From Ardenticatenales bacterium (GTDB lineage: Bacteria; Chloroflexota; Anaerolineae; Epilineales; Epilineaceae): a DNA stretch of 64,000 nucleotides. Made by a program: the position numbers and the translations under genes. The notes beneath the pieces were generated by a model, which made no database searches, was not told the DNA's origin, and was given only the letters and a program-made list of their open reading frames with translations. This document shows, in pieces, positions 4,682 through 61,479 of this stretch. Position 1 is the first letter of the stretch. The number at the start of each line of letters is the position of its first letter. Location: the NCBI GenBank assembly GCA_020853525.1, contig JADYYS010000055.1, positions 1-64,000 of the forward strand, written 5' to 3'.

Positions 4682-7600
4682 CCTGCCCCTGCTCCTCGTG
4701 CCTTGTTCGGATCCTGTCGCTTCGGCAACTCCGGCAATCGGTAGGCGTCGCGCTGCGGTCGATACGCCCTGAGCAACCAGTACGGCCGCCGCGTGCCGTC
4801 GGGTGAGACGTCGTCGGCGCCGCGGGCCATGGCCAGCCACTCGCGGTACACCGCCATCGACCGCGCCGTGTCCACATGGACGTCGCCGAGGCGGTCGTCG
4901 GGCCGGGCCGGCTGGATCGTCACCTTCTGATGCCAGCAGTGCATGCCCGTCACCGGGTCCGGATGGACCGGGAACGTCAGGTTCTGGTGGACGCCGACGT
5001 CCTTCCACCACACGCGCGACGAGTCCGGATCGGCGCTCTCGAACGGTCCGGCGCCCCGGATACGGCGCATCGACCACGCCTGCCCATCGCCCTCGCCCGA
5101 TGACGTCGCCGCCGACGCCGACGGGCCGTCGACGACCGGCACGCCCCCGCGCGTCAGATCGACGAGCGCCGTGCTGAAGTGCCCGCCGCCGTCCTCCGTC
5201 AGCCGCCATCGCCCGAGGTGGTGCGAGCACGCTGCGACGCCGGGGCGGATGCCCTCGGTCACCCAGAGGCGGTCGATGAAGTGGCCGATTTCGGTCGTGA
5301 TCCGCACGAGGTCGCCGGTCTGCAGGCCGAGGCGCGCGGCATCGCTCGGATGGAGCCAGAGCGGGTTGTTGTGGCTGATCTCATAGAGCCACTTGCTGTT
5401 GCCGGTGCGGGTATGGATGAGCGTCGGCAGGCGGAACGTGCTGATGAGGACGACCTCGCCCTTCGCGCGGTCGACACGGCTGGGATGGACGTGGCTGGGC
5501 GTGTAGCCCGGTAGCGCCCACTCCGGCCAGCCCCACTCGGCCAGGGTGGGCGAGAAGAACTCCAGACGGCGGGAGGGGGTGTCGAAGCCGCGGCGAACGG
5601 CGGCGGTCGTGAGGTCGCGGGGGGTCGACGGCGTAAGGGTTGTATGGGTCGTATGGGTCTCATCGGACCTATTGGACCCATGGGACCCATGGGACCCTTG
5701 GGACCCATCCGACGCATCCACGACCCGCCCCACGACGCGCATCCCGTCCGCGCCCGCCGGAAACGCCGGATGCGGTGTGATGTTGGCGCCGTGCGCCGCC
5801 GGTGCCGGCGACCAGACGACGCCGTCCGCGTCCACGCGGGCGCCGGCGAGGAGGTCGGCGGCCACGGGCTGGTCGTACGGGGCGCCGGGGCCGCGGCGGA
5901 GCTCGAAGGCGCCGTACTTGCGCATGTAGGCCAGCGGGGTGAGGCCCTCGGCGGCGGCCTTCTCGGGCAGGCCGGGGACGTTGTGGTCGAAAAGCCAGCC
6001 GTAATAGTCGTCGACGGTCATCCGCTCGCCCGGCCGGTGCGGTGACTCGAAGTGCTTGCGGATGCCGAGCGAGCCGTCGGGATCGATCTGCCACGACAGG
6101 GCGATGAAGAACTCCGTCTCCTCCCAGACCTCGCCCGGGTTCGCCTGCCACGTGAACTCGACCGGCCGGCCCATCTTCTCGAGCGCGACGCGCCGCACGG
6201 GCTGGCGGAACGCGATCCAGCAGCCGGCATGCGTCTCCTGGCTCATGACGTCGTGGCGCTCGCTGGAATGGCCCATCGGCAGGACGTAGTCCGCGAAGTG
6301 GGCGGTCTCGCTCCACGTCGGGGTCAGGCAGACGTGGAGGCCGACCTTGTCCTCGTCCGTCAGCGCCTCGATCCACGTCGCACCGTCCGGGTTCGTCCAG
6401 ACCGGGTTGTAGACGCGGGTGAAGTACGTGTCGAGCTTGGCCCGCCCCTCCTTGAGGAAATGGGGCAAGAGAAAAGACAGCTCGAAGAACGTCAGCGGGT
6501 ACTCGCGCGGCCACGACAGCTCGTTCCAGCGCGGCGGGTTCGGCGCCAGCTGCGGCGGCCGCGGCACCCACTTGTCCCACGCGTTCATCGACGTCCCGCC
6601 CGACGTGCCGACGGAGCCCGTCAGGACGTTCAGCAGGAACAGGCAGCGCGCCACCTGCCAGCCGCCGAGGTTGCCCGCCGTCGCGCTCCGCCACGTGTGC
6701 GCGGCCAACCGCGAGCCAGCATCGGCGACGATATCGGCGACCTGCGCGATGACCGCCGCATCGACGCCGCTCTCCGCGGCCGCGAACTCGAATGTGTACG
6801 GCGCGTACAGCTCCAGGAACCGGCGCTCGAACTGCTCGAACGTGCGCTCGTCCCCCGGATGATCGTGCGCCAGCCAGGCCTCCCAGTTCACCCACCTCTG
6901 CACGAAGTCGCGGTCGTGCTTGCCCACGGCGACGATGTGGCGGGCGATGGCGAGCAGGATCGCGGCCTCGCTGCCCGGCCACGGCGAGAGCCAGTGGTCG
7001 GCGCGGCTGGCGGTGTTCGACAGCCGCGTGTCCATGACGATCAGCTTGGCGCCGCGGAGCTTGCCTTCGATGATCCGCTGGGCGTGCGGGTTGAAGTAGT
7101 GGCCGGTCTCGAGGTGGGCGCTGATCAGCAGGATGACGCGCGCGTTCGCGTGGTCCGGCGACGGCCGATCGAGCCCCGTCCAGTACGCGTACCCGGCGCG
7201 CGCGCTGGCGGAGCAGACGTTCGTGTGGCTGTTGTGCCCGTCGATCCCCCAGCCCCAGAGCACGTACTCCATCAGCCCGTCGTGCCCCGGCCGCCCGACG
7301 TGGTACATCACCTCGTCGTGCCGCTCCTCCGCGAACGCCGTGCGGATCCGCCCGCCGATGTCAGCGAGCGCCTCGTCCCACGTCGTCCGCACCCACTTCC
7401 CCTCGCCGCGCCTGCCGGCGCGCTTCAGTGGGTACAGGATCCGCTCGGGGTCGTGCACCTGGTTGTGCGTCGCCGGCCCCTTGGCGCAGTTCCGGCCGCG
7501 GCTGCCGGGGTGCTCGGGGTTGCCCTCGAACTTCTGGACGTCGAGTGTCTCCCGGTCGACGTAGGCGAGGAGCCCGCAGGCGCTCTCGCAGTTGAAGCAG

Positions 7601-8976: not shown

Positions 8977-9261
8977 TCAGTAGCCGCGCTCCTCCACGCA
9001 CTCCACGATCCGCACCCGCGGCCCCGTCATCACCGTCCCCTCGACCTGCTGCCAGATGCCGCGCATCTTGGCGACGAACGCTTCGGCCATCGGCTGTGTG
9101 TCGAAGTCGAGCTCGATGATCACGTAGCGCACGTCATCGACGGGACGATAGACCCGGTAGCGGCGCACGCCCGACACCTCGCGGCCGGCGGGGTCGCGAT
9201 CGAAGGCGGCTTTCCAGCCGTCGTAGTCGGGGACGGGGTGTTCGATCTGGACGGTGAGCAT
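8977..9261 (-). CDS. small dimeric alpha/beta-barrel (ABM-like) protein
   Basis: 94 residues with the pattern of ferredoxin-like ABM or cyclase-type domains: an N-terminal beta strand (LTVQIEHPV), DYDGWKAAFDRD, a central RVYRPVDDVRYVIIELDFD strand pair, then MAEAFVAKMRGIW and a final VRIVECVEERGY strand. Such proteins act as small monooxygenases, dehydratases or binding proteins. A strong AGGAGG lies before the ATG at 9261. Likely operon with the DinB gene. Confidence 0.7.
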   Translation of the reverse strand: MLTVQIEHPVPDYDGWKAAFDRDPAGREVSGVRRYRVYRPVDDVRYVIIELDFDTQPMAEAFVAKMRGIWQQVEGTVMTGPRVRIVECVEERGY

Positions 9262-9396
9262 CGGACGCCTCCTGAGCGTTGGCCGTCGAAGGGGACGAAC
9301 ACGTGCCCATCGACCTCATCGCGACGCGACCGCGCTCATAATAGACCGGCTTGCCTGACCGTCCACCACATCAGGCAGGGGTACGATTCCAGTACC

Positions 9397-9499
9397 CATG
9401 TGTACTTGCTCAAGTACACATGCCGACGCACCCCGAATCCACATGCCGATTCCACTCAAGTACACATGCCGACATCGCGTGACTTCCACATGCCGATTC
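9397..9499. repeat. palindrome plus 46-bp direct repeats carrying CACATGCCGA
   Basis: A 12-bp inverted repeat CATGTGTACTTG / CAAGTACACATG with a 2-nt spacer occupies 9397-9422. From 9409 a unit of about 46 bp is repeated twice, so that CACATGCCGA occurs at 9417, 9440, 9463 and 9487, spaced 23-24 bp. The last copy contains the ATG of the thpR gene. The helical spacing suggests a protein-binding array or attenuation region. A fifth CACATGCCGA is at 10884. Confidence 0.75.
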
Positions 9500-10089
9500 C
9501 CCCCGCCACCCGCGCCGTGACCGAGCCCCCCCGCCGCCTCTTCGTCGCCGTGCCGCTGGGCGCCACGACGCGCCAGGCGATCGAACGCCACCTCGCCCGC
9601 CTCGGCCCGCTGCCCGGCCGCCTCGTGCCGTCCGCCAACTGGCACGTGACGCTGCGGTTCCTCGGCGATGTGGACGCGCGCGGCGAAGCGGCGCTCGGGC
9701 GCGCCTTGGACGACGCGGCGTGGCCGGCCGCGTTCGGGATGACGTTCGGCCGCCTCGGCGCGTTTCCGACGGCGGCGCGAGCGCGCGTCCTGTGGCTCGG
9801 CGTCGACGAAGGCACCGCGGCGCTCTGCCGACTGGCGGCGCTCGCCGATGGGGCGGCCGAGTCGGCGGGCCTCGGATCGGACGGCCGCTTCGCGGCTCAT
9901 CTCACGCTCTCGCGCGTGCGTCCGGGCACGCCGGGCGACGTGCGGCGGCTCGTCGATGCGGCGCCGGGGGCGAGGATTGCGACGACGGTGAGCGAGGTCG
10001 TGCTCTACGAGAGCGAGCTCGGCGGCGGGCCGGCGCGCTATGCCATCCGGCATCGGGTGGTCTTGGCGACGGCCGAACGTCCGGGCTAG
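9490..10089 (+). CDS. thpR: RNA 2',3'-cyclic phosphodiesterase (2'-5' RNA ligase family)
   Basis: 199 residues. The two catalytic H-x-T-L motifs of the 2H phosphoesterase superfamily are present: HVTLRFLGD near residue 50 and HLTLSRVRPG near residue 135. The N terminus RRLFVAVPLG and total length match ThpR, which opens 2',3'-cyclic phosphates on RNA. The ATG at 9490 is chosen because the family start lies just before RRLFVAVPLG; it lies inside a CACATGCCGA repeat and has no obvious Shine-Dalgarno site. Confidence 0.87.
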   Translation: MPIPPATRAVTEPPRRLFVAVPLGATTRQAIERHLARLGPLPGRLVPSANWHVTLRFLGDVDARGEAALGRALDDAAWPAAFGMTFGRLGAFPTAARARVLWLGVDEGTAALCRLAALADGAAESAGLGSDGRFAAHLTLSRVRPGTPGDVRRLVDAAPGARIATTVSEVVLYESELGGGPARYAIRHRVVLATAERPG

Positions 10090-10753: not shown

Positions 10754-10843
10754 CGCGCTGACATCGCCCGCCCCGCACGATCGGTCCCCGTGACGGGCGA
10801 TGTCGCGACGGCAGTGCGCATTCCCGCGTATACAGCGCGTCCG

Positions 10844-10879
10844 CCGATCCGACCGATCCGACCGATCCGACCGATCCGA
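10844..10879. repeat. four exact copies of the 9-mer CCGATCCGA
   Basis: CCGATCCGA is repeated head to tail at 10844, 10853, 10862 and 10871 in the leader of the membrane protein gene at 10917, just before a CACATGCCGA copy at 10884-10893. It lies between genes, unlike most other nonamer tracts in the window. Confidence 0.9.
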
Positions 10880-10916
10880 CCTTCACATGCCGATCCGCAC
10901 TTGGAGACGCCCCGCC

Positions 10917-11897
10917 ATGCCATACGTCGAGATCCTCAAGCGCGCTTGGACCCTCACCTGGCGGTACAAGATCCTGTGGCTGTTCGGCCTGCTGGCCGGC
11001 ACGGGCGGCGGGATCAAGTTCGGCGACATCGGCAACGGAATCAGCCGCCGTGCCGGGTCGCCGGGCGGCCGTGGCCGGATTCCGGGAATGCCCGAAGGGA
11101 TGGGCGACAGGATGCCCTGGCGGGACGGCGGCTTCGGCCCGCTGGCGATGCAGTGGCTGCAGGACAACGCCGGCATGATCGCCCTCGCCGTGGGTATCGC
11201 CCTCATCCTCGGGCTCGTCCTGCTCGTCATCGGCATCGCCGCCAAGGGCGGGCTCGTGCACCTGTCTGCGCGCGCCGACAGCGGCGAGGCGGTGGCCGCC
11301 GGCAACGGCTGGCGGGTCGGCTTCCGGTATTGGTGGCGGACGTTCGGCACACACCTGGCCATCTTCCTGCCGATTCTCGCGATCATCATCGCCGGGGCGA
11401 TGGTCCTCGGGGCGGTGGGGATCGGTTCGATGGCGGCGTGGAACGCGGAACGCCAGGGGATTGCCGGCACCGGGGCCGTGGCTTTCATCGGGCTGATGGT
11501 GCTGTTCTCTCCCTTCCTGTTCATCGCCATCTTCACGGCGAATCTCCTCCTCGAGCTCGCGCTGCGTCACGCGATCCTGGCCGACCAACCCGTGCTCGAC
11601 GCCGTCGGCACGGCGTGGCGCAACCTGCGGGACCGCTTCCTCGACGTCTTCCTGATGTGGCTCGTCCAGTTGTTGTGCACCCTCTTGTTCGGCTTCGTGA
11701 TCGCCGTCATCGCCGGCATTGTGCTGGTCCCGGCGGTGATCGCGGGGATCGCCGCCGAGAGCGTCGGCCTCGGCATCGCCTTCGCGCTTCCCGGGCTGGT
11801 CTTGCTGCTCATCCCGGTCGCCATCTACGCCGCCTGGCGATCGACGGCCTGGACGGTGTTCTGGCGCCAGCTGGTCGTTCCATCGACCGCCCCATAG
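10917..11897 (+). CDS. multi-spanning membrane protein (DUF4013-like)
   Basis: 326 residues. It starts with an amphipathic segment (ILKRAWTLTWRYKILWLFGLL) and has five or six further hydrophobic stretches, with a Gly/Arg/Met-rich hydrophilic loop at residues 32-72. The pattern ELALRHAILADQPVLDAVGTAW followed by a RDRFLDVF turn resembles DUF4013/DUF7544-type membrane proteins of unknown role. The ATG at 10917 has GGAG 10 nt upstream; another in-frame ATG at 10887 lies in the CACATGCCGA repeat. Its 3' end overlaps the next gene. Confidence 0.7.
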   Translation: MPYVEILKRAWTLTWRYKILWLFGLLAGTGGGIKFGDIGNGISRRAGSPGGRGRIPGMPEGMGDRMPWRDGGFGPLAMQWLQDNAGMIALAVGIALILGLVLLVIGIAAKGGLVHLSARADSGEAVAAGNGWRVGFRYWWRTFGTHLAIFLPILAIIIAGAMVLGAVGIGSMAAWNAERQGIAGTGAVAFIGLMVLFSPFLFIAIFTANLLLELALRHAILADQPVLDAVGTAWRNLRDRFLDVFLMWLVQLLCTLLFGFVIAVIAGIVLVPAVIAGIAAESVGLGIAFALPGLVLLLIPVAIYAAWRSTAWTVFWRQLVVPSTAP

Positions 11898-41669: not shown

Positions 41670-42626
41670 TCAGGGAGTCGACGACGTGGGCGTGGCCGGG
41701 TCGATCGGCATGTGGCGGTGATCGCCGGCATTCGAGCCGGGCGTCATCGGCATCGTGCCGCCCATGGGCATCGTGCCCGTCATCGGCATCGCGCCGCCCA
41801 TGGGCATTGTTCCCGACATCGGCATCGTGCCGCTCATGGGCATTGTCCCCGACATCGGCATCGACGATCCCATCATCCGGTCCATCATCCCGCCCATCAT
41901 GCTGCCCTCCCCGTGCATTTGCTCATGCATCTGCAGCATCCCGTTCGCGCGCATCTCGGCCATCAGGCGCTCGATGTCCGGGCCCGTGCAGCGGCCCATG
42001 ATCGTGTTGCCCATGCGGTGGCACGGCATGTCGGCCATCTGGGAAGTATCGACGACGACCTGTCCGTCGGCGTGCGCGCCCGCTGCCGGCGCGCCGGCGA
42101 ACGTCTCGCCTTCGATCGTGATCGGGATGACCATGCCGGCCTCGGCGTGGCCGGAGATGTGGCAGCTCATCTCGAAGTCGCCCGGGGTAAGGAACACGGC
42201 GTTCTGGTCGACCGTCGCGCCCACGGTCAGCCGGTCCTCGAGCACCGACACGAGCTCGCCGGGGTGCTGGTGCGAGCCCGTCATCATCTGGCCGGCGCCG
42301 ATCTGGGCGATCATCGCGGCGGTGTCGCCGCGCGGCATGATCCGGAACTGGTGCGCCAGCAGCCCCTTGTTCGTCACGACGAAGCGGTACGGCACGCCGG
42401 TCTGGAACGTCGTGAGCGTGGAGGTGATGGCGTACTCGCCGACGGTGACCTCGACGTCAACCGGCTGCACGGCGGCAGAGACGGCCGGGACGCTGCCGGC
42501 GGCGGGCGCGTCGGCGTCCGAGGCGGCGGGCGTGGCGTTGTCGCCGGTGCCACAGGCGATGAGTCCGGCGGCCATGAACAGGGCGCCGAGGAGGACGGTC
42601 ATGCGGCGGATGGCGGAATGTGACAT
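41670..42626 (-). CDS. cupredoxin lipoprotein with CHM module and Met-rich tail
   Basis: 318 residues. A lipoprotein signal ends LIAC (Cys25). Residues 55-175 form a cupredoxin with H92, C155, H160 and M165 as probable type 1 ligands (FEMSCHISGHAEAGM). Residues 197-221 hold a copy of the C-H-x-M-x4-M-G-x-C module (C202, H203, M205, M210, C213). The C-terminal third is extremely Met rich: a helix with MHEQMHGEGSMMGGMMDRMM and about six MPMSGT-like repeats. Likely an outer-surface Cu(I)/Cu(II) store or relay. Good SD (AAGGAG) before ATG 42626. Confidence 0.88.
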   Translation of the reverse strand: MSHSAIRRMTVLLGALFMAAGLIACGTGDNATPAASDADAPAAGSVPAVSAAVQPVDVEVTVGEYAITSTLTTFQTGVPYRFVVTNKGLLAHQFRIMPRGDTAAMIAQIGAGQMMTGSHQHPGELVSVLEDRLTVGATVDQNAVFLTPGDFEMSCHISGHAEAGMVIPITIEGETFAGAPAAGAHADGQVVVDTSQMADMPCHRMGNTIMGRCTGPDIERLMAEMRANGMLQMHEQMHGEGSMMGGMMDRMMGSSMPMSGTMPMSGTMPMSGTMPMGGAMPMTGTMPMGGTMPMTPGSNAGDHRHMPIDPATPTSSTP

Positions 42627-55115: not shown

Positions 55116-55261
55116 GTGTAGGGGCACGGCATGCCGTGCCCATCCGTTGGCTGAACGACGATCGTCGATTCAGGCGTTTCCCATGGCATGCCGTGTCGAT
55201 GCGATGGACGGACGCTAACCGCGAGGTCGGGCGATGGGCACGGCATGCCGTGCCCCTACAC
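55116..55261. repeat. 146-bp MITE-like element with 29-bp perfect inverted ends
   Basis: The ends 55116-55144 and 55233-55261 are exact reverse complements. Each contains the 20-bp palindrome GGGCACGGCATGCCGTGCCC, next to GTGTAG or its complement. The internal 88 bp contain a third, imperfect copy (CATGGCATGCCGTGTCGATG). No transposase. Same size class and edge motif as the elements at 2421 and 20457. Confidence 0.88.
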
Positions 55262-61447: not shown

Positions 61448-61479
61448 AGTAGGGGCGAAGCAATTGCTTCGCCCCTACT
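61448..61479. terminator. perfect 32-bp palindrome, GTAGGGGC family
   Basis: A 16-bp arm AGTAGGGGCGAAGCAA is followed immediately by its exact complement (61464-61479). It lies 8 bp after the ahcY stop and 18 bp before the protease stop, so a hairpin could end both transcripts. There is no U tract, so classical intrinsic termination is doubtful. Confidence 0.6.

Follow-up and report, generated by a model that had tools for sequence, protein, structure and literature searches.

The window, i.e., the whole 64,000-nucleotide stretch of Ardenticatenales bacterium contig JADYYS010000055.1 that was analyzed, contains an array of repeated sites (positions 9390 to 9499) terminating at or within the start of thpR, a gene annotated as encoding an RNA 2',3'-cyclic phosphodiesterase of the LigT family (9490 to 10089, plus strand; TIGR02258, E = 3.6e-30; LigT_PEase, E = 2e-18). 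Candidate starts of thpR are ATG 9466, ATG 9490, and GTG 9517, the last just beyond the end of the array, and the TIGR02258 match starts at residue 16 of the ATG-9490 reading. A small divergent open reading frame (ORF) of 94 amino acids (8977 to 9261, minus strand) starts 128 bp from the array. This ORF had no match in NCBIfam and none in Pfam, although the 5' end of the Pfam query was shifted out of register by one codon.

The better repeat unit in the array is a partly palindromic site of 18 bp, with starts at 9390, 9412, 9435, 9458, and 9482. The five units, all included in the left-out test described below, are CAGTACCCATGTGTACTT (unit 1, 9390 to 9407), which is nearly palindromic; AAGTACACATGCCGACGC (unit 2, 9412 to 9429), with a strong left half and a weak right half; GAATCCACATGCCGATTC (unit 3, 9435 to 9452); AAGTACACATGCCGACAT (unit 4, 9458 to 9475); and ACTTCCACATGCCGATTC (unit 5, 9482 to 9499). 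A possible extra unit at 9368 to 9385, suggested by its pitch (22 bp before unit 1) and its right half (GGGGTAC), is weak and doubtful; it was included in search model R2 and left out of the tests of left-out scores and half pairing.

A sequence-only reading of the locus had proposed a 26-bp inverted repeat with 12-bp arms, followed by 46-bp direct repeats placing CACATGCCGA every 23 to 24 bp. The repeats are real, but their unit and scope had been misread. The 12-bp arms are perfect (9397 to 9408 and 9411 to 9422) and the 46-bp direct repeat is present, but the 26-bp palindrome (9397 to 9422) spans the boundary between sites 1 and 2, joining the right part of unit 1, a 4-bp gap, and the left part of unit 2, rather than being a unit of its own. 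The copies of CACATGCCGA in the array are exact (9417, 9440, 9463, and 9487; spacings of 23, 23, and 24 bp). The window has two more exact copies, one at 10884 and one on the opposite strand at 41705, and 16 matches with up to one mismatch were found in the window (shuffle mean, 6.40; maximum, 12; 100 shuffles). Genome-wide, exact CACATGCCGA matches were at chance level (15, against 15 for the reversed control), so only the clustering of CACATGCCGA is remarkable. It was ruled out as the true motif, and its spacing is a shadow of the 18-bp site. The copy at 10884, noted in the original reading as lying in the leader of the next membrane gene, does exist, but it is a chance copy with no array around it (best three-unit chain there, -4.0). 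Similarly, the last copy in the array does cover the thpR ATG; however, ATG recurs through the array because the center of the site is usually CATG, and the overlap is therefore not meaningful by itself.

Other repeats were observed in the window. About five tandem copies of TCCGACCGA (10840 to 10881) lie directly before the membrane-protein gene at 10917, with the lone CACATGCCGA at 10884 following them. A perfect, loopless 32-bp palindrome, AGTAGGGGCGAAGCAATTGCTTCGCCCCTACT, is found at 61448 to 61479; two identical copies of a perfect 20-bp palindrome, GGGCACGGCATGCCGTGCCC, lie 114 bp apart (55122 to 55141 and 55236 to 55255); and a 36-bp tandem repeat is present in 3.3 copies at 91% (41745 to 41863).

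The array at thpR is one member of a dispersed family. A search of its own genome with positions 9330 to 9520 matched a locus on contig C58 (88% over 33 bp; E = 1.1e-4) with the same pattern between different flanks, where CAGTACCCTTGTGTACTT is followed by AAGTACAC and successive steps measure 22, 23, and 23 bp. Another locus, the third, on C6 (E = 0.022), has the same pitch with different letters. On the reading of these two loci, the motif was re-cut to partly palindromic 18-bp units with a pitch of 22 to 24 bp and linkers of 4 to 6 bp, which differ between units. Once the motif was re-cut, the check for further arrays that had been suggested with the original reading was positive. A model of two-unit pieces from four arrays, built from sequence only, added loci on C34 (E = 6.8e-4), C56 (E = 0.11), and C39 (C39b; E = 1.45), which on reading had three to six units at 22 to 23 bp. 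A three-unit model gave no eighth array in this genome among the candidates scored; its weak matches clustered in G002, a genome of another genus in the same family, where five pitched arrays were recognized on reading. A third model, run under strict filters on 150 genomes of the class, had matches in six: those in the window genome and G002 were arrays and added C360 and C142 of G002, while single matches in the four others were not accepted as arrays. Among the candidates scored, the 148 other genomes, including G001, yielded no accepted array. A final run covering three genomes brought in C470, C265, and C166 of G002 and none new in the window genome or in G001, a genome that is 84% complete.

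Each array is a row of 3 to 6 sites. In total, at least 7 arrays were found in the window genome (C55, the window array; C58; C6; C39a; C39b; C56; and C34), at least 10 in G002 (C58, C59, C97, C142, C166, C235, C265, C320, C360, and C470), and none was recognized in G001; since at most 150 candidates per genome were scored (at most 35 under the stricter filters of the class scan), these counts are lower bounds and absence elsewhere carries little weight. Models R1 to R3 were trained on arrays already found, and the G002 arrays first appeared at E values of 0.011 to 1.14 (seven arrays) and 0.11 to 0.38 (the last three). The identification of the G002 arrays rests on their pitch, the left-out test, and a leader block that was absent from all models. 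G002 is isolate UCB3; UCB3 appears as the name of an order within Anaerolineae (passages of PMC11748557) and is used at the order level within Chloroflexi (a passage of PMC9942424). No such array was named in the literature searched, and judged by that search alone, the arrays seem to be undescribed.

Several candidates were rejected. These included model matches L151, L152, L156, L158, L161, L164, and L166 (best chain, 8.9); L182, L183, and L185 (best chain, 12.5); and G002:C304 with two places in G001 (best chain, 8.2). L184 of genome G105, with a chain of 23.6, came near the weakest accepted array (27.1 when left out) and lies inside a 475-residue frame resembling a membrane protein. The 20-bp junction GTGTACTTNNNNAAGTACAC, with up to one mismatch, was present in 8 of 396 class genomes, including the window genome, and chains at the seven other loci were at most 17.0. 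In viral contigs, a version with 4- to 5-bp spacing yielded 17 stretches; the best chain (26.5) was in a stretch of 37% G+C, and because the matrices presume a G+C-rich background, these were not taken as arrays.

Under left-out matrices, all 17 arrays outscored every background position in the DNA fetched from their own genomes. Three-unit chains scored 37.6 to 60.8 bits for the 7 arrays of the window genome, versus at most 13.4 at 162,125 other positions (nine stretches), and 27.1 to 42.0 bits for the 10 arrays of G002, versus at most 10.6 at 86,281 positions (ten stretches); in an earlier test with seven G002 arrays, all seven scored 33.0 to 43.6. Units averaged 6.9 or 7.5 bits under the matrix of the other genome, and random 18-mers of the window genome averaged -15.1 under its own matrix. 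Over 45 steps (seven arrays from each genome), the pitch was 23 bp in 32, 22 bp in 12, and 24 bp in 1, an average of approximately 22.7 bp, which is not exactly two helical turns. In both genomes, the mean left-out score was highest at 23 bp, flanked by shoulders at 22 and 24 bp, and peaked again at 45 to 46 bp, a result that is partly by construction since the unit registers were set by eye at 22 to 24 bp.

The positions of the arrays relative to genes were examined with starts from a simple codon-usage gene caller. Six of the seven arrays in the window genome are located shortly before a gene start, either called or likely, at a distance of 28 to 128 bp. Besides the window array, 128 bp from the divergent ORF and overlying the thpR start, these were found 123 bp from a solute-binding protein gene (C58), 125 bp from arfB and 279 bp from a GyrI-like gene (C6), 28 bp from a start (C39a), 78 bp from the lipoyl synthase gene and 66 bp from a gene without a Pfam match (C39b), and 109 bp from an ORF at 1514 that resembles an antitoxin and is followed by a ParE toxin ORF (C56). 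The C34 array is 21 bp past a stop codon. Half of the G002 arrays (C97, C235, C142, C265, and C166) were upstream of a confidently called start, by 80 to 235 bp; those on C58 and C470, and probably C59, lie between converging genes, that on C320 is 11 bp after a stop codon, and the placement of that on C360 is ambiguous. Among the neighbors scanned, the adjoining genes had no evident function or pathway in common, and no candidate for a cognate DNA-binding protein was common to the arrays.

Some neighbors were recorded individually. The ORFs near C56 (L147 1514-2036) comprise the antitoxin-like ORF (DUF6290, with NCBIfam RelB models below cutoff) and the ParE toxin, and those near C235 of G002 (L177 5257-5878) comprise a toxin-antitoxin pair (RHH and PIN). 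A PIN toxin named by eye beside C360 of G002 was dropped, as it had no Pfam match. A tRNA gene on the minus strand is located approximately 85 bp from the G002 C235 array (L177 6247-6317; L157 1621-1691). Beside the C58 array of the window genome (L039 5322-5758), an apparently broken ORF resembles, by eye, an endonuclease/exonuclease/phosphatase; its 5282-5755 reading had no Pfam match.

The position of the window array, ending at or inside the thpR start, had led to the suggestion of a thpR-specific regulator that also covers translation initiation. This suggestion was unsupported: the 7 arrays of the window genome, six of them additional to the window array, and the 10 of G002 adjoin unrelated genes, and of 29 thpR loci fetched from relatives, none was accepted as carrying an array. 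The highest-scoring chains at those loci (19.3 and 18.1) came from one locus of 53% G+C, at least 1 kb from the match to the gene, and chains at thpR of the same-family genomes G002 and G001 were at most 9.2, versus 27 to 61 for arrays. An operator dedicated to thpR is thus scarcely credible and already largely refuted.

Symmetric half-sites recur across arrays, as seen in both the half-site tables and the left-out scores. With both strands pooled, the half-site consensus was NAGTMCNCA in the window genome (62 halves) and NAGWYCNCA in G002 (56 halves). The two halves of a site vary nearly independently. In G002, 112 columns were complementary within units, versus 114.9 after shuffling; in the window genome, with six seed sites of palindromic pattern removed, the count was 116 versus 106.1 (reached by 6.3% of shuffles). 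With the seeds kept, pairing was somewhat higher, both for the 32 units of the window genome (156 versus 140.6; reached by 110 of 5,000 shuffles, 2.2%) and for all 52 units (238 versus 215.6; reached by 61 of 5,000). Pairing between neighboring units showed no clear excess (window genome, 118 versus 112.3; G002, 91 versus 88.2).

These counts bear on whether the arrays could instead specify structured RNAs of one family, or form hairpins as single strands, as their partly palindromic units might suggest. Five of the 7 arrays of the window genome and 3 of the 10 of G002 were folded as RNA; folding was more stable than that of shuffled sequences for the window array (z = -3.11), C58 (z = -2.30), and C6 (z = -2.04), but less distinct for C39a (z = -0.62), C39b (z = -0.98), and the three G002 arrays (z = 0.49, -1.13, and -0.72). 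In RNAalifold, 7 of 19 predicted pairs included a sequence with both sides changed and the pair kept, whereas the covariation term for seven G002 arrays was unfavorable (+0.25). A search of 14 array loci against Rfam, up to an E value of 1, returned nothing but the neighboring tRNA. With the halves nearly independent and no Rfam match, a hairpin RNA is very unlikely. Symmetric, nearly independent halves are consistent with recognition by a protein dimer; a hairpin would need pairing between them.

The fixed pitch and, in the window array, the direct repeat of 46 bp could also have come from slippage of one 22- to 23-bp unit, producing a neutral minisatellite. Units of the window genome were slightly more alike within than between arrays (10.4 versus 9.8 of 18 positions), but those of G002 were not (9.0 versus 9.5), conservation is concentrated in the 18-bp sites, and the spacing varies from 22 to 24 bp, all of which make slippage highly improbable.

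In all 10 G002 arrays, an 18-bp leader block starts 24 bp before unit 1, with ACCG and GGAC invariant, a T before ACCG in 9 of 10, and a G after GGAC in 9 of 10; the leaders of C265 and C166 are only partial. A search of genome contigs with the leader pattern returned 20 stretches, of which two, on QEVT01000359.1 and QEVT01000090.1 (both of isolate UCB3), run on into an array; the best chain among the other 18 was 24.0, in a stretch of 42% G+C. No leader stood out beside the arrays of the window genome (best total, 77; G002, 91; six random controls, 78 to 81). Counted from the leader, G002 units of the same index were more alike than units of different index (9.37 versus 8.22 of 18 positions). 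This likeness was significant among seven arrays (permutation test, P = 0.0005; P = 0.013 without C360) and among all ten (P = 0.002; P = 0.031 without C360 and C470), and C142, C360, and C470 align through their linkers. By this same-index likeness, the G002 arrays look like diverged copies of one ancestral array.

Such copying would also fit a noncoding mobile repeat, in which a transposase or recombinase acting in trans would recognize the row of sites and would have scattered the copies. The common first site at a fixed distance, the same-index likeness, the placement of G002 arrays independently of gene orientation, and the toxin-antitoxin genes adjoining 2 of the 17 arrays (G002 C235 and C56) are in keeping with this explanation. 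However, no terminal inverted repeats or common far end were noticed in the array alignments, few copies were found (at least 7 and at least 10), and no match was obtained in phage records with the window array or in plasmid records with the G002 C142 array. The copies are also old, with units approximately half identical, yet pitch and half-sites have been kept, both of which neutral relics should lose. A mobile repeat is therefore fairly unlikely, although it is the main rival to binding by a protein, and both may hold simultaneously, since the spread of the arrays and their function are separate matters.

We lean, modestly, toward reading the arrays as clustered sites for a candidate homodimeric DNA-binding protein, forming a patch that would tune genes or organize DNA. 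For the window array, tandem protein-binding sites about two helical turns apart, as originally proposed, are still the best reading of the sequence. Each site would most likely bind one dimer of the same putative protein, and neighboring dimers, a little over two turns apart, would lie side by side, presumably cooperatively, in a nucleoprotein patch of approximately 60 to 130 bp. At promoters, as at six of the seven arrays in the window genome, the patch could repress or otherwise tune the flanking genes, which at the window array would be thpR and the divergent ORF; between converging genes, as for some G002 copies, it could insulate or organize DNA. The arrays would have spread by copying. 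Against this reading, the neighbors scanned yielded no cognate protein and no evident common function, only 5 of 10 G002 arrays precede a confidently called start, the C34 array of the window genome lies past a stop codon, the pitch departs from exactly two turns, within-unit pairing slightly exceeds that of shuffles when the palindromic seeds are kept, no equivalent of the special first site of G002 was found in the window genome, and descent of the G002 copies from one ancestor is explained equally well by a mobile repeat.

A further proposal, possible but doubtful, is that the arrays represent a kind of DNA element not described before, seen to date in two genera of a single Chloroflexota family: about four symmetric sites, with a distinct 18-bp leader in one genus, scattered as copies and maintained by selection as the platform of a dedicated nucleoprotein complex acting on adjacent genes. 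What had appeared to be a local curiosity becomes a defined, searchable family of elements, whose pitch can be measured and whose half-sites form a code, joined in one genus by a leader, in an uncultured lineage that has little molecular biology. The arrays are ready-made bait for isolating the binding protein, which, if found, would reveal by what means a bacterium disseminates and retains multisite operators or chromosome-organizing sites.

Compared to known systems, the arrays share features with several. REP, BIME, and REPIN sequences are dispersed, intergenic, palindromic elements that form hairpins. The arrays are likewise dispersed, intergenic, and palindromic but are low in copy number, with 3 to 6 different units in fixed phase, and compensatory pairing of the REP/REPIN kind appeared only as a slight excess when palindromic seed sites were included. 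Ends of Tn7- and Mu-type transposons carry rows of approximately 22-bp transposase sites, resembling the row of sites at 22 to 23 bp and the special terminal site in G002; in contrast, the sites here are symmetric, and neither a second end nor an adjoining transposase was seen. The iterons of plasmid origins have a similar pitch of roughly 22 bp but repeat a single sequence in direct orientation at a single origin, whereas the arrays are symmetric, diverged, and present at many places. CRISPR arrays have near-identical repeats and long unique spacers, while the units here are about half identical with linkers of 4 to 6 bp. According to passages of PMC8222616, many regulators of the IclR family have predicted tandem palindromes with centers 18 to 22 nucleotides apart, mainly 19 to 21, and such palindromes at about two DNA turns are taken to reflect tetramer binding. 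The arrays share with these operators adjacent palindromic sites at about two turns, but their centers are 22 to 24 bp apart, mostly 23, outside the main spacing in those passages, and there are 3 to 6 sites. With a greater pitch, this count of sites, and no IclR gene linked to the arrays, membership is not claimed; in the literature considered, the predicted IclR tandem palindromes are the nearest printed parallel to the arrays.
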